This document shows, piece after piece, positions 8,406 through 32,536 of a stretch of DNA of 34,338 nucleotides. How positions within the stretch are numbered: position 1 is the first letter of the stretch; every line of letters starts with the position of its first letter. Source of the DNA: Actinomycetota bacterium (GTDB lineage: Bacteria > Actinomycetota > Rubrobacteria > Rubrobacterales > Rubrobacteraceae); contig CADDYV010000037.1 of assembly GCA_902810695.1 (NCBI GenBank), positions 1 through 34,338 on the forward strand, read 5' to 3'. The notes beneath the pieces were generated by a model, which was not told where the DNA came from, did no database searches, and saw nothing but the letters and a program-made list of their open reading frames with translations. The position numbers and the translations under genes are program-made.

Positions 8406-8417
8406 TGTGCTATCCCC

Positions 8418-8957: not shown

Positions 8958-9829
8958 GGACGCTCTCCTTTCGCACGGCTTACGGCCAGTTCGAGTGCCC
9001 GCCGGACATAGACCCTGGCGAGCTTGAGGCGATAGGCTGCCGAACCTTTTACATCCGGTAGAGGATGAAGATCCGAGGTCGCCTCCGCGGCGGCTTCCTC
9101 GAAGAGCCCGTCCGAGGGAACGTTGCCTCTCACGAGATCCTCCGCCCGAGAAGCGCGTACCGGGGTCTGGTCCACCCCGCACAGCGAGATGGCTACCCGA
9201 TCTATGCTCTCTCCATCCAGATGCACCAGAACGGCGGTTCCCACCAGAGCGTAGCTTCCGTGCTTCCGTTGAAACTCGAGAAAAGCATGCCCTGTTCCGT
9301 CCGGCCATCGCGGCAGCCGAACCTCGGTCAAAAGCTCATCCGGCGAGCACGCGTTGGTGTACGGGCCCCGGAAGAAATCCCCCGCAGATAGCGTGCGCTG
9401 ACCGTCTGCGCCGGTAAGCACCACCTCGCCACCTGAGGTGAGAACTACCGCCGGAAGCTCTGAAGCCGGATCCGCATATGCGACGCTCCCTCCCACCGTC
9501 CCGCGATTGCGAACGGAGGGGTGGGCGACGTTCTTTACCGCCTCCACGATCAGTGGCGAGTGCCTGGCCGCTTCCGTCGAGCGTTCTAAGGCCGACTGCC
9601 GGGTGCGGGCTCCAATTGCCAGAGTCCCGTCATCCACCCGGATGTAGTCCAGCTCGCTCACCGGGTTGATGTCAATGAGATTCTCGGGTTTAACCACCCG
9701 AAAATTCATGAGCTGAAACAGGCTCTGCCCGCCCGCGAGAATCCTGCCCTGACTGCCGAGTTCGGCAAGCAACCCCACCGCTTCCTCCGTAGTCGAGGGC
9801 GCATGGTAATTAAAAGGAGCCGGTTTCAT
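8954..9829 (-). CDS. FAD-binding subunit of the molybdenum hydroxylase
   Basis: A 291-residue medium subunit of the CoxM/xanthine dehydrogenase FAD type. The two FAD-binding motifs are AGGQS at 32-36 and TVGGS at 111-115, the latter followed by ADPASELP. It takes electrons from the 2Fe-2S subunit and delivers them to an acceptor. It is the first of the three enzyme genes and shares ATGA with the 2Fe-2S gene. Its ATG overlaps the stop of a small upstream frame as TGATG, so it may be translated by coupling from that frame. The promoter of this operon probably lies at 10041-10069. Confidence 0.92.
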   Translation of the reverse strand: MKPAPFNYHAPSTTEEAVGLLAELGSQGRILAGGQSLFQLMNFRVVKPENLIDINPVSELDYIRVDDGTLAIGARTRQSALERSTEAARHSPLIVEAVKNVAHPSVRNRGTVGGSVAYADPASELPAVVLTSGGEVVLTGADGQRTLSAGDFFRGPYTNACSPDELLTEVRLPRWPDGTGHAFLEFQRKHGSYALVGTAVLVHLDGESIDRVAISLCGVDQTPVRASRAEDLVRGNVPSDGLFEEAAAEATSDLHPLPDVKGSAAYRLKLARVYVRRALELAVSRAKGERP

Positions 9830-11089: not shown

Positions 11090-11125
11090 TCAGCGAGTAT
11101 GATTGGTATGGAGACGACTCGCTGA
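11090..11125. repeat. 9-bp perfect inverted repeat over the end of the GH4 gene
   Basis: TCAGCGAGT (11090-11098) and ACTCGCTGA (11117-11125) are perfect reverse complements separated by 18 bases. One arm carries the TGA stop of the GH4 gene. No T-run follows on the minus strand. It could be a weak terminator hairpin or a trace of the neighbouring insertion. Confidence 0.4.
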
Positions 11126-12418
11126 CCGGATCCCCTCTGGCAAAGCGTCGCCGTGGGCCTCTATAAGCTCATCTACCAGATGATGCAACTCCGATAGAGA
11201 CAGTACGCTCGGAGCATGCCGGTCGAGCATCGCCGCGTGGTAGAGGTGCTCCCTTCTCCCTTCCAGTGCCGCCCTTACCGTCAGTTCCTGCACCGTAACG
11301 TGCGGCAGACACATCCCCGCAAGCTGCACTGGAAGCTCTCCCGCGTGGCAGGGCCTGAGACCCGTTTTATCTACCGCTACAGGAACTTCCACACAGCAGC
11401 CTTGGGGAAGGTTCTCTATGAGATGGTCATTGCGGACGTTGCCGTAGATAAGGCGCGGCTCTCCGGTGATCATGGAGTGGATTATCAGCGAGCCATACTC
11501 CACGCTGCGCTCCAGCGGGAAGCTCTCCCCAGCAAGCAGCTTGCGGCGGGTGCTCTGATACTCCTTGAGGTTCTCCTCGCTGCGCCTTATGTACTCATCT
11601 ACCGGAACATCGTACTCCTCTATCAATTCCTCCTCTCTGAGGAAGTAGGGGGTGTACTCGGCGTTGTGCTCGCTAGATTCGGTCACAAAGTAACCGAGGT
11701 GGCGCATAAGCTCGAAGCGTACCTTGTCTCTGGCGTAGATCTTGGGGTCATCCATCGCCTTAAACAACAGCGGGTAGGCATCTTCCCCATCCACTTCGAG
11801 GCGGGTCATCCAGGCGATGTGGTTTATCCCCAAGCACTCATAGAGCAACTTCTCACAGGCAACTCCGATGTAGGAGGATATCTCCTGCGCCGTGTAGGGC
11901 ACACTGTGGCACAACCCCACCACCTCTATCTCCGGGAATGCCTCATAAAAAGCCCAAACAAGCATGCTCATTGGGTTGGTGTAGTTAAGGAGAACAGCTT
12001 CCGGGCAAAGCTCTCTCATATCCTCGCCCAGACTCAGCATGAAAGGTATCGTCCTCAAGCCCCGGAAGATCCCCCCGATACCCAAAGTGTCAGCGATGGT
12101 CTGCTTGAGACCGTACTTCTTGGGGATAGAGAAGTCCAGCAGAGTCGCCTCGTGCATCCCGATCTGGACCATGTTTATGACGAAGTCCGCGCCTTCGAGG
12201 GCTCCGCGCCGATCGGTGTGCTCTTCCACCCTGGCACCGGCTCCGAGCTGCTCAGAGGTCCAGCGGGCCATCATCCCGGCGGTCTGCAGGCGCTCGGGGT
12301 CTATATCGTGCAGGGAGATGGTTGCTCCGTGCAACTCAGGGAACTCGAATATGTCGGTGAGCAGGTTCTTGGTGAAGACCACGCTCCCTGCTCCAATGAA
12401 CGCTATCCTGGTAGTCAT
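11090..12418 (-). CDS. GH4 family glycosidase, alpha-galactosidase type
   Basis: A 442-residue GH4 enzyme. This family uses NAD and a divalent metal in a redox-elimination mechanism. The N-terminal Rossmann motif is GAGSVVF (9-15), followed by DIDPERL (38-44), NYTNPM at 145-150, the metal-binding cysteine in CHSV at 170-173, and NH at 199-200. CHSV is, as known for GH4, the signature of alpha-galactosidases rather than phospho-glycosidases (CNVP or CDMP). The ABC importer in the same operon fits, since it delivers unphosphorylated sugar. The ATG is only two bases after AGGAGG, unusually close. It is the last gene of the operon, 7 bases after its paralogue. Its last eleven residues are polar and run into the inverted repeat beside the transposase remnant. 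Confidence 0.9.
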   Translation of the reverse strand: MTTRIAFIGAGSVVFTKNLLTDIFEFPELHGATISLHDIDPERLQTAGMMARWTSEQLGAGARVEEHTDRRGALEGADFVINMVQIGMHEATLLDFSIPKKYGLKQTIADTLGIGGIFRGLRTIPFMLSLGEDMRELCPEAVLLNYTNPMSMLVWAFYEAFPEIEVVGLCHSVPYTAQEISSYIGVACEKLLYECLGINHIAWMTRLEVDGEDAYPLLFKAMDDPKIYARDKVRFELMRHLGYFVTESSEHNAEYTPYFLREEELIEEYDVPVDEYIRRSEENLKEYQSTRRKLLAGESFPLERSVEYGSLIIHSMITGEPRLIYGNVRNDHLIENLPQGCCVEVPVAVDKTGLRPCHAGELPVQLAGMCLPHVTVQELTVRAALEGRREHLYHAAMLDRHAPSVLSLSELHHLVDELIEAHGDALPEGIRSASRLHTNHTR

Positions 12419-12425
12419 AACCTCC

Positions 12426-13760
12426 TCAGATCCGTACTTTCTCGAACTCCGGCAGCCAGTGAGCCTGCGCCTCCAGCATCTCGTCCACCATCGAGTGGAT
12501 CTGGGGCAGGGTACAGACGGCGGCTGTCAAGGGGTCCATCATCACCGCGTGGTGTACCGCCTCGACGCTTCCGGTCAGCGCTGCTTCCATAACCAGCTCC
12601 TGCACGTTGATGTTGGTGCGGTTCAGGGCGGCAAGCTGGGCGGGCAGTTTTCCGACCCTGGTGGGCTGGATGCCGCTCCCGTCAACCAGGCACGGCACCT
12701 CGACGCAGCAGCCTTCGGGAAGGTTTTCGATCAGGGAGCGATTGGGCACGTTGCCGTTGATGCTTAGGGGCCTGTTCGTTTCTATAGCCTCCATGATGTA
12801 CGAGCCGTACTCGGGGGTGCGGTGGGACGGGACATCCGCGGCTTTCCACCACTCTTTGCGCTGGGACTCTTCGAGTGCGCTCTGGCAGTGGCGCAGATAC
12901 CCTCCGGTACGCCCGAAGTCGAACCACCCATCGTTCTCGTTGTCGAAGAGAGGAATCAACTCCTCCTCGACCATCCGCTCGCTCTTGCGGAAGTACGGCA
13001 CGTACTCGCTGGCGTGTCCGCTGGACTCGGTGACGAAGTAGCCCAGAGAGCGCATGAGCTCGATCCTCACCGGCTCCTGATGGTAGATATCCTCTCGCCC
13101 GGCGGCTTCCTTTATGGCAGGGTAGAGATCGTGCTTCCCGAGACGGAACTGCAGGAAGAAAGCCTGGTGGTTGATCCCGGCGCACAGGAAATTGACCTTG
13201 TCGTAAGGCACTCCAACCCATCCCGCCAGCATCTCGGAAGTACCCTGCACGCTGTGGCACAGCCCCACGTGCGGACGGCCCATAGCCCTGTCCACCGCCC
13301 AGCAGTTGGCCGCCATCGGATTGACGTAGTTCAGAAGAAGTGCATCCGGCGCAAGCTCATCCATCTCCCGGCACAGTTCCAGCAAGACCGGGATGGTTCG
13401 CAGGGCACGGAACACACCCCCCGGCCCTAGAGTATCGCCCACGCACTGCTCGACCCCGTATCTCTTGGGAATCTCGATGTCCAGCTCGTAGGCATCGAGT
13501 CCGCCCTGCTGGAAGGTGGTTATCACGTAGTCGGCGCCGCGCACCGCCTCCCGCCGGTCGGTGGTAGCCTCCACCCGAGCCGCAAGATCCCGGCTCTGGA
13601 CGATACTTTGGACCAGGTTTCGAGCCTGCTTCAATCTCGCTGGATCTATATCCATCAGCGAAATGGTGCTCTCCTGTAGCGCAGGCGCGAGCAGGATGTC
13701 GCTGCACAGGTTGCGGGTAAACACGAGGCTTCCCGCCCCGATCAGTGCGATATTGGCCAA
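12426..13760 (-). CDS. GH4 family glycosidase, second paralogue
   Basis: A 444-residue GH4 enzyme with the same plan as its neighbour: NAD-binding GAGSLVF (8-14), DIDPARL (37-43), NYVNPM (144-149), CHSV (168-171) and NH at 197-198. The CHSV signature again points to alpha-galactosidase-type activity on unphosphorylated substrate. The two proteins share layout and many blocks (for example IPKxYG and GGxFRxLRTIP) but differ widely elsewhere, so they are old paralogues and probably have different aglycone or sugar preferences, not a recent duplication. It begins with TTG, five bases after AAGGGG, and lies 27 bases after the second permease. Confidence 0.9.
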
Positions 13761-13787: not shown

Positions 13788-14645
13788 CTACTTCAAGCCG
13801 GTGCTGGCGATGCCCTGGACGAAGTAACGCTGGAACAGAACGAAGATGATCAGTATCGGGATGATAGAAACTAAAGCCATGGCCATGAGGTAGGGCCAGT
13901 TTGTACCGTAGGGTCCCTGCATCAGGTTCAGCCCGAGGGGAACCGTGTAGGCGTGCTGGCTCTGCAGCGCCACTATCGGCCACTCGAAGTCGTTCCAGCG
14001 CCACATGAAGGTGAAGATCACCAGCACCGCTATCGCCGGTTTGGAGAGCGGCAGGATGATCTTGCGGAAAATGGTGAACTCGCTCGCCCCATCGAGCCTC
14101 GCAGCTTCTATCAGGTCGTCGGGAATGCTCATCATGAACTGACGAACCATGAAGATCCCGAAAGCCTCGGCTGCTCGGGGGAAGACGACTCCCCAGTAGC
14201 TATCAACCCAGCCCAGCTTGCTGATGATGAGAAACTCGGGGACGATGATGGCTTGGATCGGGATCATCAGGGTGCTGAGCATCGCAAAGAAGATGATGTC
14301 CCGCCCCCAGAATTTGTATTTGGCGAAGGTGTATCCTGCAAGCAGGTTGATAAACACGGTGATTATCACCGCGATGATCGCGATCGCAAAAGAGTTGATG
14401 TACCAGTGGGTAAAGGGCATCGAGTTCCAGGCTTTGCTGAAGTTGCTCCACTCCCACTGGGTGGGCCACAGGTGAATCTGCCTGGAGAACACCTCACCTT
14501 TGGACTTGAGGGCGGTAGCGAACATCCAGTAGAGCGGGAAGAGCATGACCAGCGCGCCGATAGCGGCCACGATCCAGCGGATAGTGTCGGATGCCCTGCT
14601 CGCGCCTGATGCTTTGCTAAAGCGTTTGGCACCTGTCATATTCAT
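13788..14645 (-). CDS. Sugar ABC transporter permease (MalG/CUT1 type)
   Basis: A 285-residue inner-membrane permease with about six predicted helices. The ABC-interaction loop is present as IEAARLDGASEF followed by ILPL (about 190-210 from the chosen start). The ATG at 14645 is preferred because GGGGAGAG lies just upstream; a longer frame would overlap the first permease gene by 37 bases and add an atypical N-terminal tail. It pairs with the MalF-type permease upstream to form the translocation channel. No ATPase gene is in this operon. Confidence 0.9.
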   Translation of the reverse strand: MNMTGAKRFSKASGASRASDTIRWIVAAIGALVMLFPLYWMFATALKSKGEVFSRQIHLWPTQWEWSNFSKAWNSMPFTHWYINSFAIAIIAVIITVFINLLAGYTFAKYKFWGRDIIFFAMLSTLMIPIQAIIVPEFLIISKLGWVDSYWGVVFPRAAEAFGIFMVRQFMMSIPDDLIEAARLDGASEFTIFRKIILPLSKPAIAVLVIFTFMWRWNDFEWPIVALQSQHAYTVPLGLNLMQGPYGTNWPYLMAMALVSIIPILIIFVLFQRYFVQGIASTGLK

Positions 14646-14662
14646 AAAAACTCTCCCCACCG

Positions 14663-15652
14663 CTAGTAAGTTGACTCGCCCTGGCGGGAGATCCGCCACT
14701 GCACTACCGTGAAGATCAGGATAAGCAGATAAACGACTACTCCCATCGCACAGGCGTATCCCAGGTCCGAGTTCTGAAATGCCTGCTCGTAGATGTACTG
14801 GACGAGCACCGTGGTCGAGAATCCGGGACCGCCACCGGTCATTACATAGACTATGTCAAAGACTTTAAAAGAGAAGATGACGTTGATTATGAGTATCAAA
14901 AACGTCGTGGGCTTAAGAAGCGGCCAGGTTACGTGCCGGAACTGTCCCCAGACGGTAGCGCCATCAACCTTCGCGGCATCGTAGTACATGCTGGAGATTG
15001 ACTGGAGCCCGGCGAGGTAGATCACCATGCAGAAACCCACCCGGATCCAGAGCGTCATGATGATCAGGGTAGGCATCGCCCAGGTAGACGATGAGAGCCA
15101 GTGAATAGTGCCCACCCCAAACCTGCCCAGCACCTCGTCAACGATTCCGTAGTTGTCGTTGAAGAGCCACTCACCAACCAGGGCGACTACCACGCCGGAT
15201 ATAACCACCGGCATGAAGTAGATGCTGCGCAAAAGACCGCGAGCCGGAAGCTTCCGGTTGAGCAGCAGCGCGACGGCAAGGCCGAGCACCATACTGGTGG
15301 GTACCGTGCCTATGGTGTATACGACGGTGTTGCGCAGCGATTGCCAGAACTGATGGTCGTGGACCATCTCCGAGTAGTTCGAGAATCCGTTGAACTGGGA
15401 GGTGCCGATCAAACTCCACTGGTGAAAGCTCACGTAGAAAGCGAACAGCAGCGGAATAAACATGAAGACGGCGAAGACAAGCAGGTTCGGCGTGATGAAG
15501 ATGTATGGGATTATGCGTTTCTGGTGTCGGCTCCACCAGCCTGCCTGCTTCTGCGGCGGTCTGTTAGAGCGGGTTGGTTGCTCGTTTTGTCGAAGAGCGG
15601 TTTCCACACCACTCTCTCTGGAACTGAAACCGAGCCCGGGCCTCTCAGCCAC
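14663..15652 (-). CDS. Sugar ABC transporter permease (MalF/UgpA type)
   Basis: A 329-residue permease with a 45-residue basic cytoplasmic N terminus and about six membrane helices. The cytoplasmic coupling loop reads YYDAAKVDGATVWGQF, the EAA-loop variant usual in CUT1 sugar importers. The GTG start at 15652 has GGAGCG six bases upstream and overlaps the stop of the binding-protein gene by eight bases, so translation is probably coupled. With the binding protein and the MalG-type partner it should import an oligosaccharide or glycoside for the two GH4 enzymes. Confidence 0.9.
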   Translation of the reverse strand: MAERPGLGFSSRESGVETALRQNEQPTRSNRPPQKQAGWWSRHQKRIIPYIFITPNLLVFAVFMFIPLLFAFYVSFHQWSLIGTSQFNGFSNYSEMVHDHQFWQSLRNTVVYTIGTVPTSMVLGLAVALLLNRKLPARGLLRSIYFMPVVISGVVVALVGEWLFNDNYGIVDEVLGRFGVGTIHWLSSSTWAMPTLIIMTLWIRVGFCMVIYLAGLQSISSMYYDAAKVDGATVWGQFRHVTWPLLKPTTFLILIINVIFSFKVFDIVYVMTGGGPGFSTTVLVQYIYEQAFQNSDLGYACAMGVVVYLLILIFTVVQWRISRQGESTY

Positions 15653-16970
15653 TGAGGACGCTCCGTATCCCGCTCGCGATGTTCTTCGCCGTTTTCTCCG
15701 GCGACTGGCTTGAGGTAAACATCAGGTCGAGCTGATCTTCCAGCTTGCTCTCGATATTCTGGAAGGAATTGAACGTTTCCACCGACACCATGTCCTGCGG
15801 TATCGTCTTCGACTGCTGGACGAAGCGGTTCATCGTCTCGGGGCGGTAGGGGTAATTGAGGCCCTCCTTCACCAGGCTCTTGCGAATCGGGATGAACTGC
15901 GAGTTGGTGCAGAAATACTTCATGTTCTTCTTATCCACGACAAACTTGATGAAGTCTGCTGCGACGTCCGGGTTCTGGCAGTCCTTGGTTATGGTCAGAG
16001 CGTTTCCGCCGAGGTCTGAGGCCAGACCTTTGTCCCGGATCATGTAGGTCGCATCCCACTCCGAGTCCTTCATGTTGTCCTTGAGATAGGCCATCATCCA
16101 GTCGCCGTGGAGCATCATCCCCACGGTTCCGCTGGCGAAGAGATCCGCCGCAGTCGTACTCTGGGTTTGCTTGACCGTGTTGTCGGGCGGAATAAGGCCC
16201 TCCTCAAACCACTTCTTGGTCCACGCGAGAGCCTCTATACCAGCCGGGCTGTCTATCGCGGGCTTTTTCAAGTCATTACTGAGGAGCTTGCCTCCATGCT
16301 GGTAGAGAACCGGCAACCAGCGATATCCGGTCGTGGGTCCCTGGAAACCAAACGAGAAAGCGTACTTGGCACCGGTCTCGTTCTTGACCCTGTGAGCTAT
16401 CTTGGTGAAGTCATTCCAAGACCAGCCCTGCTGGGGGCTCTTTGGGAAATTGCTGATTCCGAGTTGTTTGAAATACTTCTTGTTGTAGAAAACACCGAAG
16501 GTATCGGTGTGATGCGGCAGGGCGTACGGCTTGCCTTTGTAGCTGATCGCCTGCCAGAACTGCGGCTCGAACGCGCTGGAATAGCCTTTTGGTATATAAG
16601 GCGAGAAATCCACCAGCGCCCCCTGCGACTTGTATATTCCCACCTGCTGCCAGGTTATCCGCTGGATGTCGGGAGCCTTGCCACCGGCCAACCGGGTCTG
16701 GAACCACTCGTTGAAGTCGCCGTTGGGGACGATCTGCACGTTGATGGAGACGTTCTTGTGCCTGGCTTCGTATTCCTTTGCCAGATGCTTAAAACTGTGC
16801 GTGTCGCTCGGGATATTCCAGGTAAAGAAGGTAAGGTTGACCTTGCCGTTCGAGCCCTGGCTTCCTCCGCCGCATCCGGCGAGACCCAGAGCAGAGGCTC
16901 CGGCAAGGGCTCCTCCACTCACCTTCAGAAAGTCTCTCCGGCTGTACGTGCGGGTGTCGAATATCTTCAC
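15645..16970 (-). CDS. ABC sugar-binding lipoprotein with Tat signal
   Basis: A 441-residue extracellular solute-binding protein of the CUT1 cluster. It opens with a twin-arginine motif (SRRDFLK at 10-16), a hydrophobic Ala/Gly/Leu stretch and a lipobox LAGC with lipidated Cys33, then a Gly/Ser linker, so it is exported folded and anchored outside the membrane. Later segments such as DFSPYIPKGY and GTVGMMLHGDW are typical of the family. The GTG start has AAAGGAGGAAGG directly upstream. It is the first gene of the importer-GH4 operon and divergent from an AraC regulator, across a gap of about 100 bases that must hold both promoters. Confidence 0.92.
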   Translation of the reverse strand: MKIFDTRTYSRRDFLKVSGGALAGASALGLAGCGGGSQGSNGKVNLTFFTWNIPSDTHSFKHLAKEYEARHKNVSINVQIVPNGDFNEWFQTRLAGGKAPDIQRITWQQVGIYKSQGALVDFSPYIPKGYSSAFEPQFWQAISYKGKPYALPHHTDTFGVFYNKKYFKQLGISNFPKSPQQGWSWNDFTKIAHRVKNETGAKYAFSFGFQGPTTGYRWLPVLYQHGGKLLSNDLKKPAIDSPAGIEALAWTKKWFEEGLIPPDNTVKQTQSTTAADLFASGTVGMMLHGDWMMAYLKDNMKDSEWDATYMIRDKGLASDLGGNALTITKDCQNPDVAADFIKFVVDKKNMKYFCTNSQFIPIRKSLVKEGLNYPYRPETMNRFVQQSKTIPQDMVSVETFNSFQNIESKLEDQLDLMFTSSQSPEKTAKNIASGIRSVLSG

Positions 16971-17072: not shown

Positions 17073-17960
17073 GTGGTAGACGAGAGCGTCAAGGCTGATC
17101 TCGATGAGGTACCGGGATTCAGGATCTGGTACGGATGGCCGCCTGCTTCCATGCCCCCGCACTGGCACGATCAGGTAGAGATCAACTACGCCGTCGGGGG
17201 GAGCCTTACTTACCTGCTCGCCGGGTCGGTGGTCGAGGTTCCACCCGAGAGGTTGTCGCTGTTCTGGGCCGGGATGCCGCACAGCGTCGTGAACAAGACC
17301 GGGATAGAGATGTTCTACTGGATCTACGTGCCGCTGGTGTGGGTCCTGCGCCTGGGACTGCCAAACCCGTTCATGAGGCGCCTGATGACCGGCGATCTGA
17401 TCGTTGACGCCGATCCTCTGGAGGCGGATCGCGCAACGCTCGACCGGTGGAGCGATGAGCTGCCCGATGCAGACCTCAGCCGCAGACACCTGATCATCCG
17501 GGAAGTCGAAACCCGATTGATCAGGTTCGCGCTGGCCCAGAAGAGCGAGGACAACAACGATCATGCCACCTATGAAGAGGGGCCGGTGCAGAAAGTCAGT
17601 GAGATGGCCCGCTTCATCGCCGAAAACTACGCGAGGCCACTACGACCGGGCGACATAGCCCGGCACGTCGGGCTCCATCCCAACTACGCGATGACTCTAT
17701 TCCGGCAGCACTGCGGGATGACCCTGAACACCTACCTCACGCGGCTCCGCGTCTGTCAGGCGCAGTACCTGCTCATCTCTACCAACCGGGATGTCTCGCA
17801 GATCGCATTCGATACCGGTTTCGGCTCCATCAGCCGTTTCTACGAAGCCTTCAAGGCGATGGGCGGACATACACCCCGGCAATACAGGATGCAATCCGCT
17901 CCGTGGGAATATGGGCCGAGATCCCCGTTCAACCCGTGCTCCGACTCACTCCCTGGCTAG
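17073..17960 (+). CDS. AraC family transcriptional regulator of the GH4/importer operon
   Basis: A 295-residue regulator with an N-terminal cupin-like sensing domain (PPHWHDQVEINY near 29-40, with the usual His-x-His and Glu) and a C-terminal pair of helix-turn-helix motifs (about 180-275), including IARHVGLHPNYAMTLFRQ and IAFDTGFGSISRFYEAFK. This arrangement is that of sugar-responsive activators. The GTG start at 17073 is divergent from the solute-binding protein, so the likely target is that operon. Its stop overlaps the converging aldehyde dehydrogenase stop by four bases, leaving no space for a separate terminator. Confidence 0.92.
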   Translation: MVDESVKADLDEVPGFRIWYGWPPASMPPHWHDQVEINYAVGGSLTYLLAGSVVEVPPERLSLFWAGMPHSVVNKTGIEMFYWIYVPLVWVLRLGLPNPFMRRLMTGDLIVDADPLEADRATLDRWSDELPDADLSRRHLIIREVETRLIRFALAQKSEDNNDHATYEEGPVQKVSEMARFIAENYARPLRPGDIARHVGLHPNYAMTLFRQHCGMTLNTYLTRLRVCQAQYLLISTNRDVSQIAFDTGFGSISRFYEAFKAMGGHTPRQYRMQSAPWEYGPRSPFNPCSDSLPG

Positions 17961-19330
17961 GGTGATATCAGGAGCGTCCTGCTCTCGGTATAGAACTGCC
18001 TGGCAGCCAATCCCTGCTCCCTGCTAGATCCTATCCCCGATCCCTTCGAACCACCGAAGGGGGTATGGTAATCCACCCCGGCGGTGGAGGCGTTGACCCG
18101 CACCAGGCCTGCTTCCAGCCGCTCTCCTATCGTCATCGCCTCTTCCAGATCTTCGGTGAACACAGCAGCGGCAAGCCCGTAGCGCACTTCGTTGGCAATC
18201 TTTACCGCTTCTTCTGCCGAGGAAGCCCGAAGCAGCGTGCTCACGGGGGCAAAGACCTCTTCTTTTGCCAGAATGCTTCCGCGATCCTCGATCTCTACCA
18301 GCGTGGGAGCGAGATAGAATCCTTCTCCGTCGAGAGATTGACCTCCCGTTAGCTTCCTGCCTCCCCCTTTTTCGAGGGCTTCTAAAGCCGAGGCGCGAGC
18401 TTCGTCTTCGATCAGAGGTCCCACCTGGCAGCTTTCCTGCTCCGGATCAACGACCCCCATCTGCTCTACCGCCGAGATGAGCCTCTCGCGCAACTCCTCA
18501 TATACGGAGTCCTCGACGATGACGCGGCTGGTGGCGGTGCACTTCTGCCCGGCGTAACCCATCGCGGCGTAAGAGATGGTTTTGGCCGCCCGATCCAAGT
18601 CGGCATTAGCCAGAACGATCGAGGGGTTTTGCCCGCCCATCTCGCACTGCACCCGCGCTCCCCTACCCGCAACTTCTCTGGCAACGCTTTTGCCTACCCC
18701 GGCAGATCCCGTGAACGATACAGCAGCCACCTCTGGATGCTTTACCAGCGGCTCTCCTGTCTCCGCATCTCCCAGAGCAAGCTCGAAGGTTCCTTCTGGC
18801 AGGTATTTGTCTGCGATCTCCTTTATCCGGTGGGCTATCGCGGTAGCCTGGGGAGCGGGCTTCAGAACCACGGTGTTGCCGTAGCCGAGCGCGGGGGCGG
18901 CCTTCCACAGAGGAATAGCTATCGGGAAGTTCCAGGGAGTGATAAGCGCGCACACTCCCAGAGGGTATCTGCGAGCTATCAGCCAGTCTTTGGAAGATGT
19001 GCTCGCCGGATAGGTTTCGCCATCCGGGGCGAGGACCATCTGGGAGTAGTAGCGCAGGATGGAGATAGCTCTTCTTACCTCGCCATGGGCCTCGGTTACG
19101 GGCTTTCCTACCTCCCGGACTACGAGGCTAGAGATCTCCTCAAAGAGCTGCTCTATCTCATCGGCTATGTTGCTCAGCGCAGTGCCACGCGAAAGGGCGG
19201 TCTGCTCGCGCCACTCGGGGAAGGCTCTGTGCGCGCGGGATACAGCTTCCTCGACGCCTTGCTCTCCCGACTCCTCGTACTCCCCGATCACCTCCGAAGG
19301 TTTGTGCGGGTTGATGCTCTTGAACGCCAA
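17957..19330 (-). CDS. Aldehyde dehydrogenase (succinate-/ketoglutarate-semialdehyde type)
   Basis: A 457-residue NAD(P)-dependent aldehyde dehydrogenase. Catalytic residues are in place: Asn134 in PWNF, Glu230 in CEMGGQNP and Cys264 in GQKCTA; FTGSAGVGK (206-214) binds the cofactor. It is close in style to succinic-semialdehyde, 2,5-dioxovalerate and glyceraldehyde dehydrogenases. The TTG start has AGGAGG seven bases upstream. As the last gene after an aldonate dehydratase it could oxidise alpha-ketoglutarate semialdehyde (pentose route) or glyceraldehyde (non-phosphorylated hexose route). The sequence alone does not separate these. Confidence 0.9.
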   Translation of the reverse strand: MAFKSINPHKPSEVIGEYEESGEQGVEEAVSRAHRAFPEWREQTALSRGTALSNIADEIEQLFEEISSLVVREVGKPVTEAHGEVRRAISILRYYSQMVLAPDGETYPASTSSKDWLIARRYPLGVCALITPWNFPIAIPLWKAAPALGYGNTVVLKPAPQATAIAHRIKEIADKYLPEGTFELALGDAETGEPLVKHPEVAAVSFTGSAGVGKSVAREVAGRGARVQCEMGGQNPSIVLANADLDRAAKTISYAAMGYAGQKCTATSRVIVEDSVYEELRERLISAVEQMGVVDPEQESCQVGPLIEDEARASALEALEKGGGRKLTGGQSLDGEGFYLAPTLVEIEDRGSILAKEEVFAPVSTLLRASSAEEAVKIANEVRYGLAAAVFTEDLEEAMTIGERLEAGLVRVNASTAGVDYHTPFGGSKGSGIGSSREQGLAARQFYTESRTLLISP

Positions 19331-19351: not shown

Positions 19352-20509
19352 TTAGCGGCTTGTCCTTTCACCGCGCTTCTCCCAGCCTTCCGCGAACAGG
19401 TTGAAGTGCACGTCCTGCTTGGGATGGGCCTCTACCACCGACTCGTCGAGTTCGACGCCGAGGCCCGGACCGCCGGGCAGCGGGAAATACCCGTCCTCGA
19501 CCTCCGGCAGGCCTGGGGCCGTCTGCTTGACCCACGGATCGGCGAAGTCGTTGAAGTATTCCTGGATCTTGAAGTTCGTGGTCGAGGCTGCCAGATGGAG
19601 CGCCGCTGCGGTGTTGATCTGACCTCCCACGTTATGCGGAGCCATCGTCACGTAGTAGCAGTCGGCCCAGGCGGCGAGCTTCTTGGTCTCAAGAAGGCCC
19701 CCGATGTGGCTTATATCCGGCTGTATGACGTCCGCGGCCTGCAGCTCGAAGAGCTCCCGGTACTCTATCCTCTGGTGGATGCGCTCGCCGGTAGCGACGG
19801 GAATGCCGACCTTGTCCGTGACTTTCTTCAAGGCTTTGAGGTTCGTCGGTGGCACCGGCTCCTCGGCCCAGCTTATCCCGTAAGGTTCAAGCATACGTAC
19901 CATCTCAACTGCTGTGGCGGGCGAGAAGCGGCCGTGCATCTCCAGCAGGATCTCCCGTTCCGGCCCTATGGCGTCGCGCACCGCCTCCACCAGCCCCACG
20001 GTCTTCAGCTTCTCCTCGCGCTCCAGCTCGTAGTGCCCGGGGCCGAACGGATCTAGCTTCATGGCCCTGTAGCCTCGCTCGACGACTTTTCTGGCCGCCT
20101 CGTGGAACTCTTCGGGCTCCCGCTCGACCCGGTACCAGCCGTTGGCGTAGGCTTTGATCTTCTCGCGGACCGGCCCGCCGAGCAGGTTGTAGACGGGCTG
20201 GTCAAGGGCCTTGCCCACGATGTCCCAGCACGCCGTCTCGAAGGCGGCGATGCCGCTGCTCATCACCTCTCCCGCTCTGGAGAAGTCGTCGCGGCCCATC
20301 TTCTTCACCAAATTTTCGATCCGGAAGGGATCGTGGCCTATGACGTGGCGCGGGGCGGCCTCGTTTATGTATCCCAGCAGCGCCTCGGTGTGGTTGACCA
20401 TCCTGGCTTCGCCCAACCCCGAAAGTCCCTCGTCGGTGTGCACCCGCACGATGGTCAGGTTCCGCCATTCGGTGCCGACCACGAAGGTTTCTACGCGGGA
20501 AATCTTCAT
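19352..20509 (-). CDS. Enolase-superfamily sugar-acid dehydratase, galactonate dehydratase-like
   Basis: A 385-residue mandelate racemase/muconate lactonizing enzyme family member. The N-terminal capping domain (about 1-125) is followed by the barrel. Metal ligands are Glu190 (in EMHGR), Glu216 (AEEP) and Glu242 (GERI); His192 and His292 (APHN) match the catalytic pair of D-galactonate dehydratase, where the first ligand is usually Asp. It should dehydrate an aldonate to a 2-keto-3-deoxy acid. It overlaps the U32-like gene by ATGA and lies 21 bases before the aldehyde dehydrogenase. Galactonate or arabinonate are the likeliest substrates, given the GH4 and ara genes nearby. Confidence 0.87.
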   Translation of the reverse strand: MKISRVETFVVGTEWRNLTIVRVHTDEGLSGLGEARMVNHTEALLGYINEAAPRHVIGHDPFRIENLVKKMGRDDFSRAGEVMSSGIAAFETACWDIVGKALDQPVYNLLGGPVREKIKAYANGWYRVEREPEEFHEAARKVVERGYRAMKLDPFGPGHYELEREEKLKTVGLVEAVRDAIGPEREILLEMHGRFSPATAVEMVRMLEPYGISWAEEPVPPTNLKALKKVTDKVGIPVATGERIHQRIEYRELFELQAADVIQPDISHIGGLLETKKLAAWADCYYVTMAPHNVGGQINTAAALHLAASTTNFKIQEYFNDFADPWVKQTAPGLPEVEDGYFPLPGGPGLGVELDESVVEAHPKQDVHFNLFAEGWEKRGERTSR

Positions 20510-21447
20510 ACAACCTCCTTCTCTACGGCGGGTATGCCCGCAAAGTTCACATCTTCTGCGGTAGCCACGGCCTCCGGGTAGTAGCGTCTGAGCATCGAGA
20601 GCCCGATCTCCGCCCGCCTGACCCTCTCATGGCCCAGAGCTATCGCCGTGGGCTCCAGGTGCGTCCCCGAGGGGTAGATGTTCGGGGCGTTCCGCAGACC
20701 GAACTTCACGAACACCGGCGAGCAGACGCGCACGAGCTCCGGTATCTCGTAGTGCCTGACGAACCCGCCGAAGTCGTCGGGCACCTCCACGTAAACGTCC
20801 AGCGGCAGACTCGTCGCCGCCCGGATCGCCGCGAGCTGTCCCAGCGAGAGGTCCGTCGGGACGTTGTACGTATCGGCTCCGAGTTCCTCCATCGCCCTCA
20901 CCGCCGCGGCGTTGGCCGCCGAGAGCTGCACCGAGACCTTGACCACGAGATCCTGTGGAAGCTCGCCTCTGGCTTTGAGGTCCCGGAGCACGCGCAGGAG
21001 TCCCACGTCCGCGACCAGCACGCCGCGCAACCCGAGGTCCACGCCCCGCAACACATCCTCCAGCGCGTAGGCGAGCTGATCCTGGCCCCGGTGCTGGGCA
21101 CCGAGCACCTTCCCGGCAGCCGAGCCCGCAGCCGCCCCGGTCTCCCAGGATGCCCTGGGACCGACGAACAGCGAGAGCTCTATCTGCGTCTCGCGTGCCA
21201 TGTGGCACATCTCCAGAATCTCCGAGTCCGTGAGCAGCATGATCCCGGACCCCTGCGAAACCCGGTGGATGTGGACCTCGCGCCTTCGCGCCTCATCCAG
21301 CACCGCCTCCAGAACCCGCGGCCCCTCCACGCTTGGGATCTCCACCCGGTACTGCGCCCCATCGGGAAACCGCTTTTCGGAGTCGAGCAGTTCTCCCGGA
21401 TCCCGTTCCGGCAGCCCGAGCCCGAACAGCATCTCTCTCGCCCTCAC
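20506..21447 (-). CDS. U32-like TIM-barrel protein of unknown function
   Basis: A 313-residue protein that resembles proteins annotated as U32 family peptidases, with barrel-like alternation of strands and helices (GLRGVLVADVGLL, LVVKVSVQLSA, PLDVYVEVP). The Cys-containing U32 signature (GxxC followed by GxC) is missing, and there is no protease context, so a peptidase role is doubtful. It sits between a lactonase-like hydrolase (GTGA overlap) and an aldonate dehydratase (ATGA overlap), which ties it to sugar-acid catabolism. A lyase, aldolase or dehydratase acting on the keto-deoxy acid would fill the missing step. I cannot assign residues for such a reaction. Confidence 0.75.
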   Translation of the reverse strand: MRAREMLFGLGLPERDPGELLDSEKRFPDGAQYRVEIPSVEGPRVLEAVLDEARRREVHIHRVSQGSGIMLLTDSEILEMCHMARETQIELSLFVGPRASWETGAAAGSAAGKVLGAQHRGQDQLAYALEDVLRGVDLGLRGVLVADVGLLRVLRDLKARGELPQDLVVKVSVQLSAANAAAVRAMEELGADTYNVPTDLSLGQLAAIRAATSLPLDVYVEVPDDFGGFVRHYEIPELVRVCSPVFVKFGLRNAPNIYPSGTHLEPTAIALGHERVRRAEIGLSMLRRYYPEAVATAEDVNFAGIPAVEKEVV

Positions 21448-22286
21448 GCCTCCTCCTTCACGTAGTAGTAAAGCTCTCCCGGACGCAGGAGATGATAGTG
21501 GCGGTCCGGGTTGCGCTCGTAGAGATAGTCAACGAAGTACGCCGGGTTCTCGGTGTTCGGCGGGATGAGATCGTAGTGCGTCGGGATCGTCATTCTGATG
21601 TCGAGCGTCTCGGCAAGTTCGGCCACCTCGCGAAATCCAGTGTTCCCCACTATGTCCTGGGCAGTACGGAAGTAGTCGCGGCCGTTGATCGGCATGAACA
21701 CCACATCAATATCCCACCGTCTCAGCGTGTCGAGCAGACCGTCGTAGATAACGGTGTCGCCGGAGTGGTAGACGGTTATGCCGTTCCACTCGATAACGTA
21801 GCCGAGATAGGAATATCCGCGCTCGGGATCGTACTCCAACCCGGTGTGCGCAGACGGGATGGCCGTAACGCTGGCTCCCCCGACCGTAAATTTCCTGTCC
21901 ACCTCGGGGATCTCGGTTCGCTCCGGTTCTATGCCGGCCTGGGAGAGGTCGCAGGTGTGCGGCGCGTAGAAGCGTGCCTCCTGAGAGGACTTCGCCAGAG
22001 GCCCTAGCGTCTGTGGGTCGAAGTGGTCTATGTGGACGTGGCTGATAAGCACGCCTGCGGCGTTGGTGATATCTGCGGGGTCCACGGGTGGCGGGAAGTT
22101 GCGTTCTATGTGCCCTCCCGAGCCGTCGTTGTCGGTGAGATATGGGTCTACGTAGATCGCGCCTTCCGGTCCCCTGATAATGACCCCTGCCTGCCCCAGC
22201 CCATAGAAGCCCAGGCTGTTTGGCTGGACTTCGAGTTTGTCTACGCGCTCGACCAGGCTCCCGCTCCGTGGTGACACTTCCCTCAT
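21444..22286 (-). CDS. Metallo-beta-lactamase-fold hydrolase, UlaG-like (possible sugar lactonase)
   Basis: A 280-residue MBL-fold protein. The metal motif SHVHIDHFD gives His83, His85, Asp87 and His88; later ligands are the His in SAHTG, the Asp in HSGDT and His in PTHYD. It resembles the UlaG group (L-ascorbate-6-phosphate lactonase) more than beta-lactamases. Being first in an operon with a sugar-acid dehydratase, it may open an aldonolactone, the step before dehydration. It overlaps the U32-like gene by four bases. Its start is preceded by GGAAAGGAGG. The 123-base gap upstream holds an inverted repeat at 22351-22366. Confidence 0.85.
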   Translation of the reverse strand: MREVSPRSGSLVERVDKLEVQPNSLGFYGLGQAGVIIRGPEGAIYVDPYLTDNDGSGGHIERNFPPPVDPADITNAAGVLISHVHIDHFDPQTLGPLAKSSQEARFYAPHTCDLSQAGIEPERTEIPEVDRKFTVGGASVTAIPSAHTGLEYDPERGYSYLGYVIEWNGITVYHSGDTVIYDGLLDTLRRWDIDVVFMPINGRDYFRTAQDIVGNTGFREVAELAETLDIRMTIPTHYDLIPPNTENPAYFVDYLYERNPDRHYHLLRPGELYYYVKEEA

Positions 22287-22409: not shown

Positions 22410-23240
22410 TCACTCTGTATTGACGTGCATCTGCGCATAGAGGCGTCTGAAAGCGAGCGGCGCCATGCCCTCGTGTCGCCTGAAAATCCTGCGAAAGTAC
22501 CGCACGTCTTTGAATCCGCAAGCCCGAGCTATCTCTTCGACGTTGCGATCGCTCTCGATCAGCATCCTGCGCGCGTGCCGGACGCGGCGCCAGTGTATCG
22601 CCTGGGTAGGAGTGCGTTTGTACGCCTTGCGGTACACCCGTCCGAGATAATCCGGGTTGCATCCGAGGTTATCCGCCAGAACCGAAGTACACAGCGATGG
22701 CGCATGAAAGTGCGTGCGGATGTATGCGTCCGCCCTTCCTGCCAGAACGGCAGCGTTGTTCTCAAGAGCGTTTTTCGCCGGTTCGGAGCCGGACACCTCA
22801 CAGAGCATCAACATCACCAGCAGGCTCGCCGATACAGGGCGCAGCCCCCCTTCCTCCTGGTCATCCAAAAAACGCCGGAATACCTCCGAGAGATGGTTCG
22901 GTCGGCTCACCGTCGCGTGCTGCGGGACAGATATCACCCGCTCCGTCACCCTGTCCCGCCCATCCTCGATGACGAAATGCACCCAGTAGAAAGAGAGGTC
23001 AGACGGGTACGGCCTCGTCCCCACATGCCTGCGCCCCGGCCACAAGAGCAGCGATTGTCCGGCCTCTACCTCAAAGACTCGCTCCTCCTCCCGGATCCCC
23101 AGTGCTCCCTCGCGAACGAAGATCAACTCGTGCGATCCGATCACGCGGTCTGGATGTACTCCCTCTCCCCGCGAGACGAACAGACCGGCGTTTTCCGCCC
23201 TGAGAGGCAAACCAGTATTCAACTCCAGCGACCGCGCCAC
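22410..23240 (-). CDS. AraC family transcriptional regulator
   Basis: A 276-residue regulator. The N-terminal half is cupin-like (SHELIFVREG, then GQSLLLWPGRRH), and the C-terminal half has the AraC double helix-turn-helix: LADNLGCNPDYLGRVYRK and IARACGFKDVRYFRRIFR (about 190-265). The GTG start follows AGGAGG ten bases upstream. It is divergent from the sodium symporter, with the first 32-bp repeat in the gap (23265-23296), and it precedes the metallo-hydrolase operon on the same strand. Its likely targets are the symporter, itself, the sugar-acid operon, and through the second repeat the downstream importer. Confidence 0.92.
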   Translation of the reverse strand: MARSLELNTGLPLRAENAGLFVSRGEGVHPDRVIGSHELIFVREGALGIREEERVFEVEAGQSLLLWPGRRHVGTRPYPSDLSFYWVHFVIEDGRDRVTERVISVPQHATVSRPNHLSEVFRRFLDDQEEGGLRPVSASLLVMLMLCEVSGSEPAKNALENNAAVLAGRADAYIRTHFHAPSLCTSVLADNLGCNPDYLGRVYRKAYKRTPTQAIHWRRVRHARRMLIESDRNVEEIARACGFKDVRYFRRIFRRHEGMAPLAFRRLYAQMHVNTE

Positions 23241-29368: not shown

Positions 29369-29452
29369 GTATTGTGCTCCCGCAGAACCGTATCACAATA
29401 GAAATGATCGAACCGGGTGATAGACGTCGAAGATTACACGCACAGGAGAGGA

Positions 29453-30748
29453 ATGAGTGGAGAGGGACACGCGGGAGAACGCCAGTTCAGCCGCAGGGAT
29501 TTCCTGAAGCTTGCCACCACCGGTGTTGCCGGAGTTGGTCTCATGGGGACGGCGGGCTGCGGAGGAGAAGGAAGCAGCAGTCAGAGCAACGGCAAGGTCA
29601 AGCTGCAGTGGTGGGATTACTGGAGCATTCCGAGCCAGGTCAAAGGCCAAAAGGCTTTGCTAAAGCGTTACATGAAAACGCATCCCGCTGTCACGGCGAT
29701 CGATACTCAATACGTTCCCTTCGCGAACATGGATCAGAAGCTGTTGCAAGGCGCAATTGCCGGAAAGGTGCCGGATATTGCGCAGATCGACGACGCATCA
29801 CAACAATCTCTGGCCGCGACAGGTCTATGCGCCGACATAACAGATCAGATTAAATCTTGGGGGCAGGTCAACGAGTTCCTCAAAGCTCCCTGGGAGATCT
29901 GCAGATTGAACGGCAAATACTATGGTGTACCGTGGACAAGCAACTGTCTTGTGCTCTGGTACGACAAGGATGCCCTCAAAAAGGCCGGGGTAAAACCACC
30001 CAAAGACTGGGGCGAACTCAAGGAAGCGGCCAGGAAGCTCACTACCAGCAAACGTTCTGGTCTGGCGTTGAGCGCCATTCACAGCGAGGAAGGGACCTTC
30101 CAGTGGTTACCCTTCCTGTGGCAATCCGGTGCGGACATCCCGAACATAGACAGCCCGGGAGGCAGGGCCGCTCTGCAACTATGGGTTGACATGTTCAGAG
30201 ATGGCAGCATCTCGCACGGCGCTTTGAACTGGACCCAGCCGGACGTCGCGGAACAATTCATACACCGCCGCACGGCCATGATGATCAACGGCCCCTGGGA
30301 GATCCCATCTGTCAAAGAGGGCGCCCCTGACCTCAACTGGGGTGTTGCTCTGCTGCCAAAAGGCAAACAACGCGCTTCCATCTATGGCGGAGAGAACCTC
30401 ATGATAACCACCGGCAGCAAATATCCAGGTACTGACTGGGACTTGATCCGCTGGATCAAGGAGCCAGAAAACGACAAGTTCTTTCAGAAATTGACCGGTA
30501 ATCTACCCAGCCGCAAGAGTGAGCTGAGCGAGGATTACTGGCAGAAGGATCCGGTACGAAGCGTGTTCGCTCAGCAGCTTCTGGTGGCCAAGCCGAGGGC
30601 CTACGGACCCAAGTACGCCCAGATCTCAAACGTCATCCAGGATGCAATGCAATCGGCGATTACCGGTCAAAACTCGGTAGCAGTGGCGTTATCCCAGGCA
30701 CAGAAGGAGATAACCCCGCTGCTACCAGAACCGATGAGGAAGAAGTAG
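29453..30748 (+). CDS. ABC sugar-binding lipoprotein with Tat signal (second importer)
   Basis: A 431-residue CUT1-type solute-binding protein. The twin-arginine motif SRRDFLK (13-19), a hydrophobic stretch and Cys36 in TAGC mark an exported lipoprotein, with a Ser-rich linker before the mature domain. I chose ATG 29453 (AGGAG four bases upstream) over the GTG at 29417, which has no ribosome site and would lengthen the signal N terminus. Later family features include WNxxWEICRLNGKYYGVPW-like and MMINGPWE segments. It is distinct from the binding protein at 15645, so the two importers probably take different sugars. The two permease genes and a GH31 enzyme follow. Confidence 0.9.
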   Translation: MSGEGHAGERQFSRRDFLKLATTGVAGVGLMGTAGCGGEGSSSQSNGKVKLQWWDYWSIPSQVKGQKALLKRYMKTHPAVTAIDTQYVPFANMDQKLLQGAIAGKVPDIAQIDDASQQSLAATGLCADITDQIKSWGQVNEFLKAPWEICRLNGKYYGVPWTSNCLVLWYDKDALKKAGVKPPKDWGELKEAARKLTTSKRSGLALSAIHSEEGTFQWLPFLWQSGADIPNIDSPGGRAALQLWVDMFRDGSISHGALNWTQPDVAEQFIHRRTAMMINGPWEIPSVKEGAPDLNWGVALLPKGKQRASIYGGENLMITTGSKYPGTDWDLIRWIKEPENDKFFQKLTGNLPSRKSELSEDYWQKDPVRSVFAQQLLVAKPRAYGPKYAQISNVIQDAMQSAITGQNSVAVALSQAQKEITPLLPEPMRKK

Positions 30749-30750
30749 CT

Positions 30751-31692
30751 ATGGTTACCCAGAACAGAAACCCGGCTCGACTCAAGGGAATATGGCGCGG
30801 CAAGGATCAGGGAAGAGTGCGCAGGCTCGGCGAATATCTCTTCGTCGCTCCCGCGGTGGTTTTTATCGTGCTGCTGATGATCTACCCCTTGATCTACAAC
30901 CTCTACCTCAGCGTTCGCGATGTGAATGTGGGAACCTTTCTGTCCGGTAATGCTCCCTTCGTGGGGTTGCAGAACTACGAACAGGTGCTTGGCGACCCGA
31001 CTTTTCGCCATTCGCTGCTCATCTCTTTCGTGTTCACCGGCGCCTCTTTGTTATTCCAGTTCATCATCGGCTTTGCGCTGGCATTGTTCTTCCATCGTCC
31101 CTTCCCGGGCAACGGAGTAATGCGGTCGCTTTTGCTGCTGGGTTGGCTTCTGCCCCTGGTGGTGTCCGCCAGCGTCTGGAAGTGGCTTCTGGATGGCGAC
31201 TACGGTGTGGTCAACTACCTGCTGCAAAGCCTGGGTCTGGTGCACGGTCGCCAGTACTGGCTCACCAACCCCGACACAGCGCTCGGCGGCGTCATAGGAG
31301 CCAACATATGGCTCGGGATACCGTTCAATGCTGTCCTGCTGCTCGCCGGTCTGCAGGGCATCTCCGAATCGCTCTACGAGGCCGCCAAGGTGGATGGGGC
31401 GGGAGGCTGGCAGCGTTTCCGCTACATCACACTCCCGCAGATGCGCCCGGTGTCGCTTACCGTTCTGCTCCTCGGCTTCGTCTACACCTTCAAGGTATTC
31501 GACGTGATCTTCATAATGACCGGGGGCGGTCCGGCAACCGCGACTACTACGCTGCCCATACTCACCTACAACCAGACCTTCCAGTTTTTCACCTTCGGCA
31601 CCGGAGCAGCAACGGCTACCTTACTGTTGATCATCTCGCTAACACTGTCCGTCGCTTATCTGTTGCTGATTCGCAGGGAGGAGGCAACCTAG
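30751..31692 (+). CDS. Sugar ABC transporter permease (MalF type, second importer)
   Basis: A 313-residue permease with about six membrane helices and a short basic N terminus. The coupling loop reads YEAAKVDGAGGWQRF followed by LPQM, matching the EAA loop of CUT1 permeases, which contacts the ATPase. It starts two bases after the binding-protein stop, with GAGGAAG upstream, and its stop is one base before the next permease start. Confidence 0.9.
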   Translation: MVTQNRNPARLKGIWRGKDQGRVRRLGEYLFVAPAVVFIVLLMIYPLIYNLYLSVRDVNVGTFLSGNAPFVGLQNYEQVLGDPTFRHSLLISFVFTGASLLFQFIIGFALALFFHRPFPGNGVMRSLLLLGWLLPLVVSASVWKWLLDGDYGVVNYLLQSLGLVHGRQYWLTNPDTALGGVIGANIWLGIPFNAVLLLAGLQGISESLYEAAKVDGAGGWQRFRYITLPQMRPVSLTVLLLGFVYTFKVFDVIFIMTGGGPATATTTLPILTYNQTFQFFTFGTGAATATLLLIISLTLSVAYLLLIRREEAT

Positions 31693-31693
31693 T

Positions 31694-32536
31694 ATGAGCA
31701 CCCTTGGCAGCCTGCATCGCCGAGGCTACGGCAAGACGCTAGCAGGTATCCTGATCATGGCGGTGTACCTTTTCCCGGTCTACTGGATGGTGGTCACCTC
31801 CCTGAAGCCCTACAAGGAGATCTTCGCCGTTCCTCCCAAGATATTCCCCGATCCGGCGACATTCGGCCCATACATCAGCACGGTCATCAACGACCCCGAC
31901 GTGCACAGGGCCATTGCTAACAGCGTGATCATCAGCGTCGGTGCCATGTTGCTCACGCTGGTTTTGGGCGTGCCGGCCGCCTACGCCCTGGCGCGTTTGC
32001 GGCTGCGTTTCACCGGGGTGGTGTTGCTCGCATTGCTGGCAAGCCAGATGCTACCGGCAATAAACCTCTCGGTGCCGCTGTTCGTCTTGTTCAAATACAT
32101 CGGGCTGATCAACACCTATCCAGGGCTTATTCTGGCTGATACTACGTTCGTCCTGCCTTTCTCCATAATCATCCTGCGGCCCTTTTTCCTGGGTATACCA
32201 GGAGAGCTGGAGGACGCCGCGATGGTAGATGGTTGTTCACGGCTGGGAGCATTCTGGCGGGTGGTACTGCCGCTCGCGATACCGGGTTTGCTCACCGTAG
32301 GGGCCCTGGCGCTCGTGCTGGTTTGGGGTGAATTCGTGTTCGGTCTGACATTGACTATCTCTAATAACATGCAGCCCATCACGGTCGCCCTCAACCGGTT
32401 TATCGGCCAGTACGGTACGCAGTGGAACAAGCTCATGGCCGTCTCCACCACGGTTGCGCTGCCGGTTGTTTTGCTCTTCGCAGGGGCGCAGCGCTACATC
32501 GTCAGCGGCCTCACCGCCGGGGCAACCAAAGAATAG
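31694..32536 (+). CDS. Sugar ABC transporter permease (MalG type, second importer)
   Basis: A 280-residue permease, about six helices, with a family N terminus (LFPVYWMVVTSLKP) and the loop ELEDAAMVDGCSRLGAFWR then LPLAIPG. Loop Cys is unusual but the key Gly and acidic residues are kept. GGGAGGAGG lies upstream of the ATG. As with the first importer, no ATPase follows; a shared MsiK-like ATPase elsewhere in the genome is the likely partner. The 79 bases to the next gene hold a short GAAGC/GCTTC hairpin without a T-run. Confidence 0.9.
   Translation: MSTLGSLHRRGYGKTLAGILIMAVYLFPVYWMVVTSLKPYKEIFAVPPKIFPDPATFGPYISTVINDPDVHRAIANSVIISVGAMLLTLVLGVPAAYALARLRLRFTGVVLLALLASQMLPAINLSVPLFVLFKYIGLINTYPGLILADTTFVLPFSIIILRPFFLGIPGELEDAAMVDGCSRLGAFWRVVLPLAIPGLLTVGALALVLVWGEFVFGLTLTISNNMQPITVALNRFIGQYGTQWNKLMAVSTTVALPVVLLFAGAQRYIVSGLTAGATKE

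Follow-up and report, generated by a model that had tools for sequence, protein, structure and literature searches.

A U32-like barrel protein without the U32 cysteine signature, encoded in sugar-acid operons, is a candidate sugar-acid catabolic enzyme

The window analysed here, a stretch of 34,338 nucleotides, corresponds to contig C37 in a genome of 3.6 Mb that is 98% complete and has its closest relatives in the Rubrobacteraceae. An operon in it encodes, in this order, an MBL-fold hydrolase, a U32-like protein, an enolase-superfamily dehydratase and a KGSADH-like aldehyde dehydrogenase (ALDH), with an AraC-type regulator on each side (Table 1). The U32-like gene begins with GTG and shares four bases with each of its neighbours: its start overlaps the end of the hydrolase gene (at 21444) and its end overlaps the start of the dehydratase gene (at 20509). 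An earlier note on this DNA had described the gene as locked by such overlaps between a lactonase-like hydrolase and an aldonate dehydratase, and both junctions were confirmed.

Table 1 Positions in the window of the operon, its regulators and the residues discussed in the text
Feature	Position	Strand	Basis
AraC-family regulator, convergent at operon end	17073..17960	+	HTH_18 and AraC_binding
Aldehyde dehydrogenase, KGSADH-like	17957..19330	-	Best NCBIfam match AlphKGSA_gudD
Enolase-superfamily aldonate dehydratase, galactonate/gluconate dehydratase-like	19352..20509	-	MR_MLE_C, 229 bits
U32-like cluster-less TIM-barrel protein, 313 aa (subject)	20506..21447	-	ORF, Pfam, AlphaFold model
Codons of the E221-R231 motif	20755..20787	-	
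Codon of Lys170	20938..20940	-	
MBL-fold hydrolase, possible sugar lactonase, upstream partner	21444..22286	-	Lactamase_B_2/B_3; weak UlaG and metal-dependent hydrolase matches
AraC-family regulator, upstream of operon	22410..23240	-	HTH_18 and AraC_binding

Both enzymes downstream of the U32-like gene were assigned by best match. The dehydratase scored highest against the NCBIfam gluconate and galactonate dehydratases (312 and 292 bits, under the equivalog cut-offs of 750 and 311), and the ALDH scored 449.7 bits against AlphKGSA_gudD, under the cut-off of 770 yet above every other ALDH type. Beyond the upstream AraC regulator, the + strand carries genes for a sodium/solute symporter, a ribulokinase, a class II aldolase/epimerase-family protein (best match L-ribulose-5-phosphate 4-epimerase) and an L-arabinose isomerase-like protein. 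The operon is flanked by a pair of neighbouring GH4 glycosidase genes and by two sets of carbohydrate ABC transporter genes that are homologous to each other (11090-13760 (-), 13788-16970 (-) and 29417-32536 (+)). A three-subunit molybdopterin aldehyde oxidoreductase is encoded at 5970-9829 (-); for two subunits the best matches, under the cut-off, were glyceraldehyde dehydrogenase models, and for the large one they were CO-dehydrogenase models.

The family of the U32-like protein was examined with sequence profiles and a structural model. Pfam Peptidase_U32 (PF01136) matched residues 137-220 only (38.6 bits against a gathering cut-off of 22.4), the match stopping before the Cys signature, and 68 of 72 relatives matched it at E ≤ 1. 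A profile of the 72 relatives aligned with three canonical U32 proteins over 166 columns, residues 29-221 (hhalign 95.3%, E 2.1e-8), whereas against five DHDPS homologues hhalign gave 1.2%, i.e. no profile relationship. PF01081 (KDPG/KDG aldolase) had no match in the window protein at E ≤ 0.01 and was absent among the families of the 72 relatives (E ≤ 1); no relatives turned up in a PDB sequence search, whether the query was the protein or an initial profile built on it. The 72-row alignment gave an AlphaFold model (pLDDT 90.6, pTM 0.90) that is an eight-stranded alpha/beta barrel. Fold searches with it returned the U32 structure 5d88 (Z 14.9, 186 residues, rmsd 3.0) in a crowd of TIM barrels with similar scores, including class II aldolases, RuBisCO-like proteins and CutC, so the fold gives no verdict on the chemistry. 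The protein is a true but remote TIM barrel of the U32 superfamily. The comparison with DapA-type dehydratases and KDG aldolases that the earlier note proposed thus came out in favour of U32, and a DapA/KDG-aldolase relative was rejected on the two hhalign values.

In canonical U32 proteins of related genomes, beta5 carries H-x-S-T-Q, and E-V-F-V-H-G-A-M-C...G-R-C follows beta7. In the U32-like family the His before S-x-Q is replaced by Lys170, invariant in 72/72 relatives, and the canonical HGAMCxSxSGxC is replaced by E-x-P-D-D-x-G-G-x-x-R (E221-R231). No column of the 72 relatives exceeds 33% Cys and the four-Cys [4Fe-4S] motif is absent; the missing signature was therefore borne out, and the Cys part of the U32 metal/Cys site, whose presence by structure the earlier note had named as evidence against its own reading, is absent by sequence. 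The Glu of the E-V-F-V-H-G stretch aligns with Asp217 and, on our reading of the motif, would be E162 of TrhP. The four-Cys motif occurs in 8 of 10 U32 families, and UbiU/UbiV require the cluster and its Cys residues for activity (PMC6747719); E162, C170 and C177 are essential in TrhP (PMC6599085), a set of which the U32-like family lacks the Cys residues. Cys-less U32 groups are already on record, for example PepU32#5, as cited in PMC6747719. The losses make a hydroxylase or peptidase activity of the UbiU/UbiV or TrhP type unlikely. Remote homology would favour a function as in other U32 proteins, but the gene context is that of sugar-acid catabolism, and we regard such a function as highly improbable.

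The residues invariant in the alignment are R34, E36, R62, E90, D147, K170, S172, N195, D217, D224, R231 and K248. Lys170 sits on beta5 and Lys248 on beta8, and beta6 (193-195) ends with Asn195. The DHDPS/NAL aldolase-dehydratases carry their Schiff-base Lys on beta6 (PMC9795676), where the U32-like family has none. No His is invariant in the 72 rows (His263, in 64/72, was the best position counted), and the resemblance to class II aldolases, with their His ligands, is one of fold only.

The family was found in Actinomycetota, Chloroflexota, Bacillota, Armatimonadota and Deinococcota, with relatives at about 35% (sister clade) to 85% identity, and in about one in ten genomes of each of three sampled groups (30/296, 20/251 and 24/248). 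Gene context was compared at 60 loci, non-redundant at 90% identity and in part from metagenome assemblies; genes were called with a simple program and enzymes named by similarity. A sugar-acid dehydratase lay within 8 kb on the same strand in 34/60 loci, a set in which 12/60 have less than 3 kb of flank on one side. These partners belong to non-homologous families (MR_MLE, IlvD/EDD, a divergent IlvD/EDD type of 720-800 aa, and UxaA), and the partner type switches at least seven times on the U32-like tree, suggesting that the family tracks an activity rather than a single inherited pair. The overlap with the dehydratase gene recurs in relatives (e.g. 4507-4510 in L005 and 8945-8948 in L008) and in Rubrobacter would suit an accessory protein of the first dehydratase, such as a chaperone or a binding or regulatory subunit, with no catalysis of its own. 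The swapping of partners between non-homologous families argues against this, as do the invariant charged residues lining the barrel, which resemble an active site, and we consider an accessory role very unlikely.

The divergent IlvD/EDD-type dehydratase repeatedly adjoins the U32-like gene (L018:3419-5584, L067, L074, L080, L099-L103); the L080 protein, the one scanned against NCBIfam, fell far under all cut-offs. The sister clade (about 35-42% identity) is encoded just downstream of a panB-like gene (ketopantoate hydroxymethyltransferase, named from sequence, without Pfam) at L054:6083-8045, L055:6338-8174 and L056:925-2863; it retains Lys170 and Lys248 but has changes at E221 and in the P-D-D motif. 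The Enterobacter chuandaensis plasmid NZ_CP097174.1 encodes a 31% relative (L119:8977-9915), annotated as a 'U32 family peptidase', in a cluster with genes for an aminotransferase, an M14 peptidase, an iron-containing redox enzyme and an MFS protein, which differs from the sugar-acid context.

Other frequent neighbours of the U32-like gene are GntR/IclR regulators, SDR or Zn-ADH dehydrogenases, sugar ABC or TRAP transporters and lactonase-like genes. Tight coupling to the first dehydratase could also mean a step before the 2-keto-3-deoxy acid, with the protein acting on the sugar or sugar acid as a lactonase, epimerase or isomerase; most Rubrobacter genomes already encode candidates for the downstream steps. 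Against this, another lactonase-like gene (MBL, SGL or amidohydrolase) lies within 8 kb in 17/60 non-redundant loci, an aldose epimerase gene also adjoins the U32-like gene, and the gene occurs in TRAP-transporter loci, whose import substrate is probably the acid itself. An earlier step is improbable on this evidence, and a lactonase role unlikely.

To take a sugar to 2-ketoglutarate, a dehydrogenase, two dehydratases acting in turn and KGSADH are needed, often together with a lactonase. A KGSADH-like ALDH gene lay within 8 kb on the same strand in 16/60 non-redundant loci. It directly follows the U32-like gene in L041, L043, L080, L082, L104 and L105, and in L040 the gene is directly followed by that of an ALDH from the same cluster; the ALDHs near the gene in L025, L064, L104 and L105 exceed the KGSADH equivalog cut-off. 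The L105 operon consists of SDR, GH4, aldose epimerase, IlvD (sugar-acid type), U32-like and KGSADH genes. This leaves the second dehydration, to alpha-ketoglutaric semialdehyde (KGSA), for the U32-like gene. The window's set of MR_MLE, MBL hydrolase and U32 genes recurs in Thermomicrobium roseum DSM 5159, where the U32-like gene is TRD_RS11835 (WP_012642555.1).

The other pathway enzymes were then counted genome by genome, with p-values that are indicative only because shared ancestry and genome size are ignored. In the Rubrobacteraceae KGSADH (E ≤ 1e-150) was present in 9/10 genomes with the U32-like gene and 1/16 without (Fisher p 3e-5); for the KdaD-like FAH dehydratase the figures were 9/10 and 0/16 (p 3e-6), a count that omits the window's own genome, which has no KdaD-like FAH. 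In the Paenibacillus order the KdaD-like FAH was found in 19/22 genomes with the gene and 4/16 without (p 2e-4), and the FAH protein of a member of this order had 2q18, a 2-keto-3-deoxy-D-arabinonate dehydratase, as its nearest PDB entry. Several Rubrobacter genomes have an FAH-KGSADH pair side by side, 8-23 kb from the U32-like operon. Near this pair a protein of 910-955 aa is encoded (L124:1943-4675, L129:11029-13824, L130:7439-10306), the L124 copy with galactarate/altronate dehydratase domains and the L129 and L130 copies UxaA-like (about 34% identity). Two Streptomyces-like genomes checked had no KGSADH at E ≤ 1e-150, and G754 and G603 have a DHDPS gene beside KGSADH, elsewhere than the U32-like gene.

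The earlier note saw no aldolase or second dehydratase in the pathway. For the window this held at the level of the genome, in which PF01081 was not found and none of three FAH homologues is KdaD-like at E ≤ 1e-45; it did not hold for most relatives, which have a KdaD-like FAH and KGSADH, often in the same cluster, and the argument from a missing second dehydratase is weakened accordingly. The window genome is one of the few with the U32-like gene where the known type of second dehydratase was not found. Apart from the best DapA-like protein it encodes two further DHDPS homologues, one with an MFS transporter and a GntR regulator as neighbours and the other between uvrB-like and ammonium-transporter genes, and with these the missing step may possibly be supplied from elsewhere in the genome. 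A co-occurring KDG aldolase, which the note named as counter-evidence, was likewise found in part: PF01081 is absent from the window genome and from R. taiwanensis, and homologues are present in 19/24 genomes carrying the U32-like gene. As general rules, replacement of the FAH dehydratase by the U32-like protein was rejected since the two co-occur, and a missing aldolase was rejected on the 19/24 count.

The main rival to a dehydratase is an aldolase of a new family, cleaving the 2-keto-3-deoxy acid to pyruvate and an aldehyde in a Dahms-type or Entner-Doudoroff-type branch. The aldonate dehydratase is repeatedly adjacent and KGSADH not always; galactonate-type dehydratases and hexose/pentose transporters are also found with the gene; a DHDPS gene directly adjoins it at one locus only, L018; and a TIM barrel with invariant Lys residues, in two genomes without PF01081, would suit such an enzyme. 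An aldolase branch would not be expected to be so strongly coupled with KGSADH and the FAH enzyme, most of the genomes counted have PF01081 homologues already, and the protein shows neither a DHDPS profile relationship nor a conserved class II His site. We regard an aldolase as rather unlikely.

It is highly likely, overall, that the U32-like protein is a sugar-acid catabolic enzyme, neither peptidase nor hydroxylase, and it probably acts on a 2-keto-3-deoxy sugar acid as a so far unrecognised enzyme. The more specific assignment as the second dehydratase yielding KGSA is tentative and falls short of probable. On this reading a U32-superfamily barrel, having lost its [4Fe-4S] cluster, would now serve as an enzyme in non-phosphorylative sugar-acid catabolism. 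The neighbouring aldonate dehydratase would produce the 2-keto-3-deoxy acid, the U32-like protein would remove a second water to give KGSA, and the ALDH would oxidise KGSA to alpha-ketoglutarate; a Schiff base with the 2-keto acid could form on Lys170 or Lys248. We infer the reaction, its stereochemistry and the role of the lysines. The partner switches, the adjoining KGSADH, the L105 operon and the KGSADH co-occurrence in the Rubrobacteraceae were counted for a dehydratase. Counted against it were the KdaD-like FAH in most genomes with the gene, so that the second dehydratase is not always missing, the DHDPS-KGSADH pairs in G754 and G603, the many loci with no nearby KGSADH, the position of both Lys residues off beta6, and the window ALDH score below the KGSADH cut-off. 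The D- and L-series of 2-keto-3-deoxy-pentonates require separate stereospecific dehydratases, FAH and DHDPS respectively (PMC7374468), which makes coexistence with the FAH type compatible with a dehydratase. Where the D-series FAH enzyme is present, the U32-like protein may serve another stereoisomer or substrate, e.g. L-2-keto-3-deoxy-pentonate, and an L-series role would account for both the FAH co-occurrence and the common KGSADH.

The earlier note had proposed a sugar-acid lyase or dehydratase mislabelled as a peptidase. The sugar-acid link, seen in many lineages, and the absence of the Cys signature stand, and the 'peptidase' label is very probably wrong; the lyase or dehydratase chemistry is a matter that fold searches cannot decide. 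Nothing tying U32 to sugar acids, galactonate, mandelate racemase, KGSA or sugar-acid dehydratases was found in the literature, subscription papers and preprints being outside the scope. If the proposal is true, at least five phyla have misnamed 'U32 family peptidase' genes in their sugar-acid operons, and the U32 barrel has switched from cluster-dependent hydroxylation to a different chemistry. The assigned reaction would fill non-phosphorylative pentose and hexose pathways in Rubrobacter, Thermomicrobium, Paenibacillus and Streptomyces-like genomes and give the Weimberg/Dahms toolbox one more enzyme.

Among known systems, the Peptidase U32 proteins (TrhP, RlhA, UbiU/UbiV and B. subtilis YrrN/YrrO; PDB 5d88) share with the U32-like family the TIM barrel, the homology over residues 29-221 and an S-x-Q...N pattern after beta5 (Q in 38/72 U32-like rows); the U32-like family differs in having no Cys motif, Lys for His at beta5, its own E-x-P-D-D-x-G-G-x-x-R and a place in sugar-acid operons. 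PepU32#5 (Kimura et al., cited in PMC6747719) is, from that citation, likewise a U32 domain without conserved Cys. The L-2-keto-3-deoxy-pentonate dehydratase of the DHDPS family and KdgD are also TIM barrels, and share the proposed role of converting a 2-keto-3-deoxy acid to KGSA, but they are separated from the U32-like protein by the hhalign value of 1.2% and by its invariant Lys residues on beta5 and beta8 instead of beta6. The D-2-keto-3-deoxy-pentonate dehydratase of the FAH type (Sulfolobus KdaD, PDB 2q18) has the pathway in common and relatives that co-occur with the U32-like gene, whereas the U32-like protein belongs to an unrelated family.
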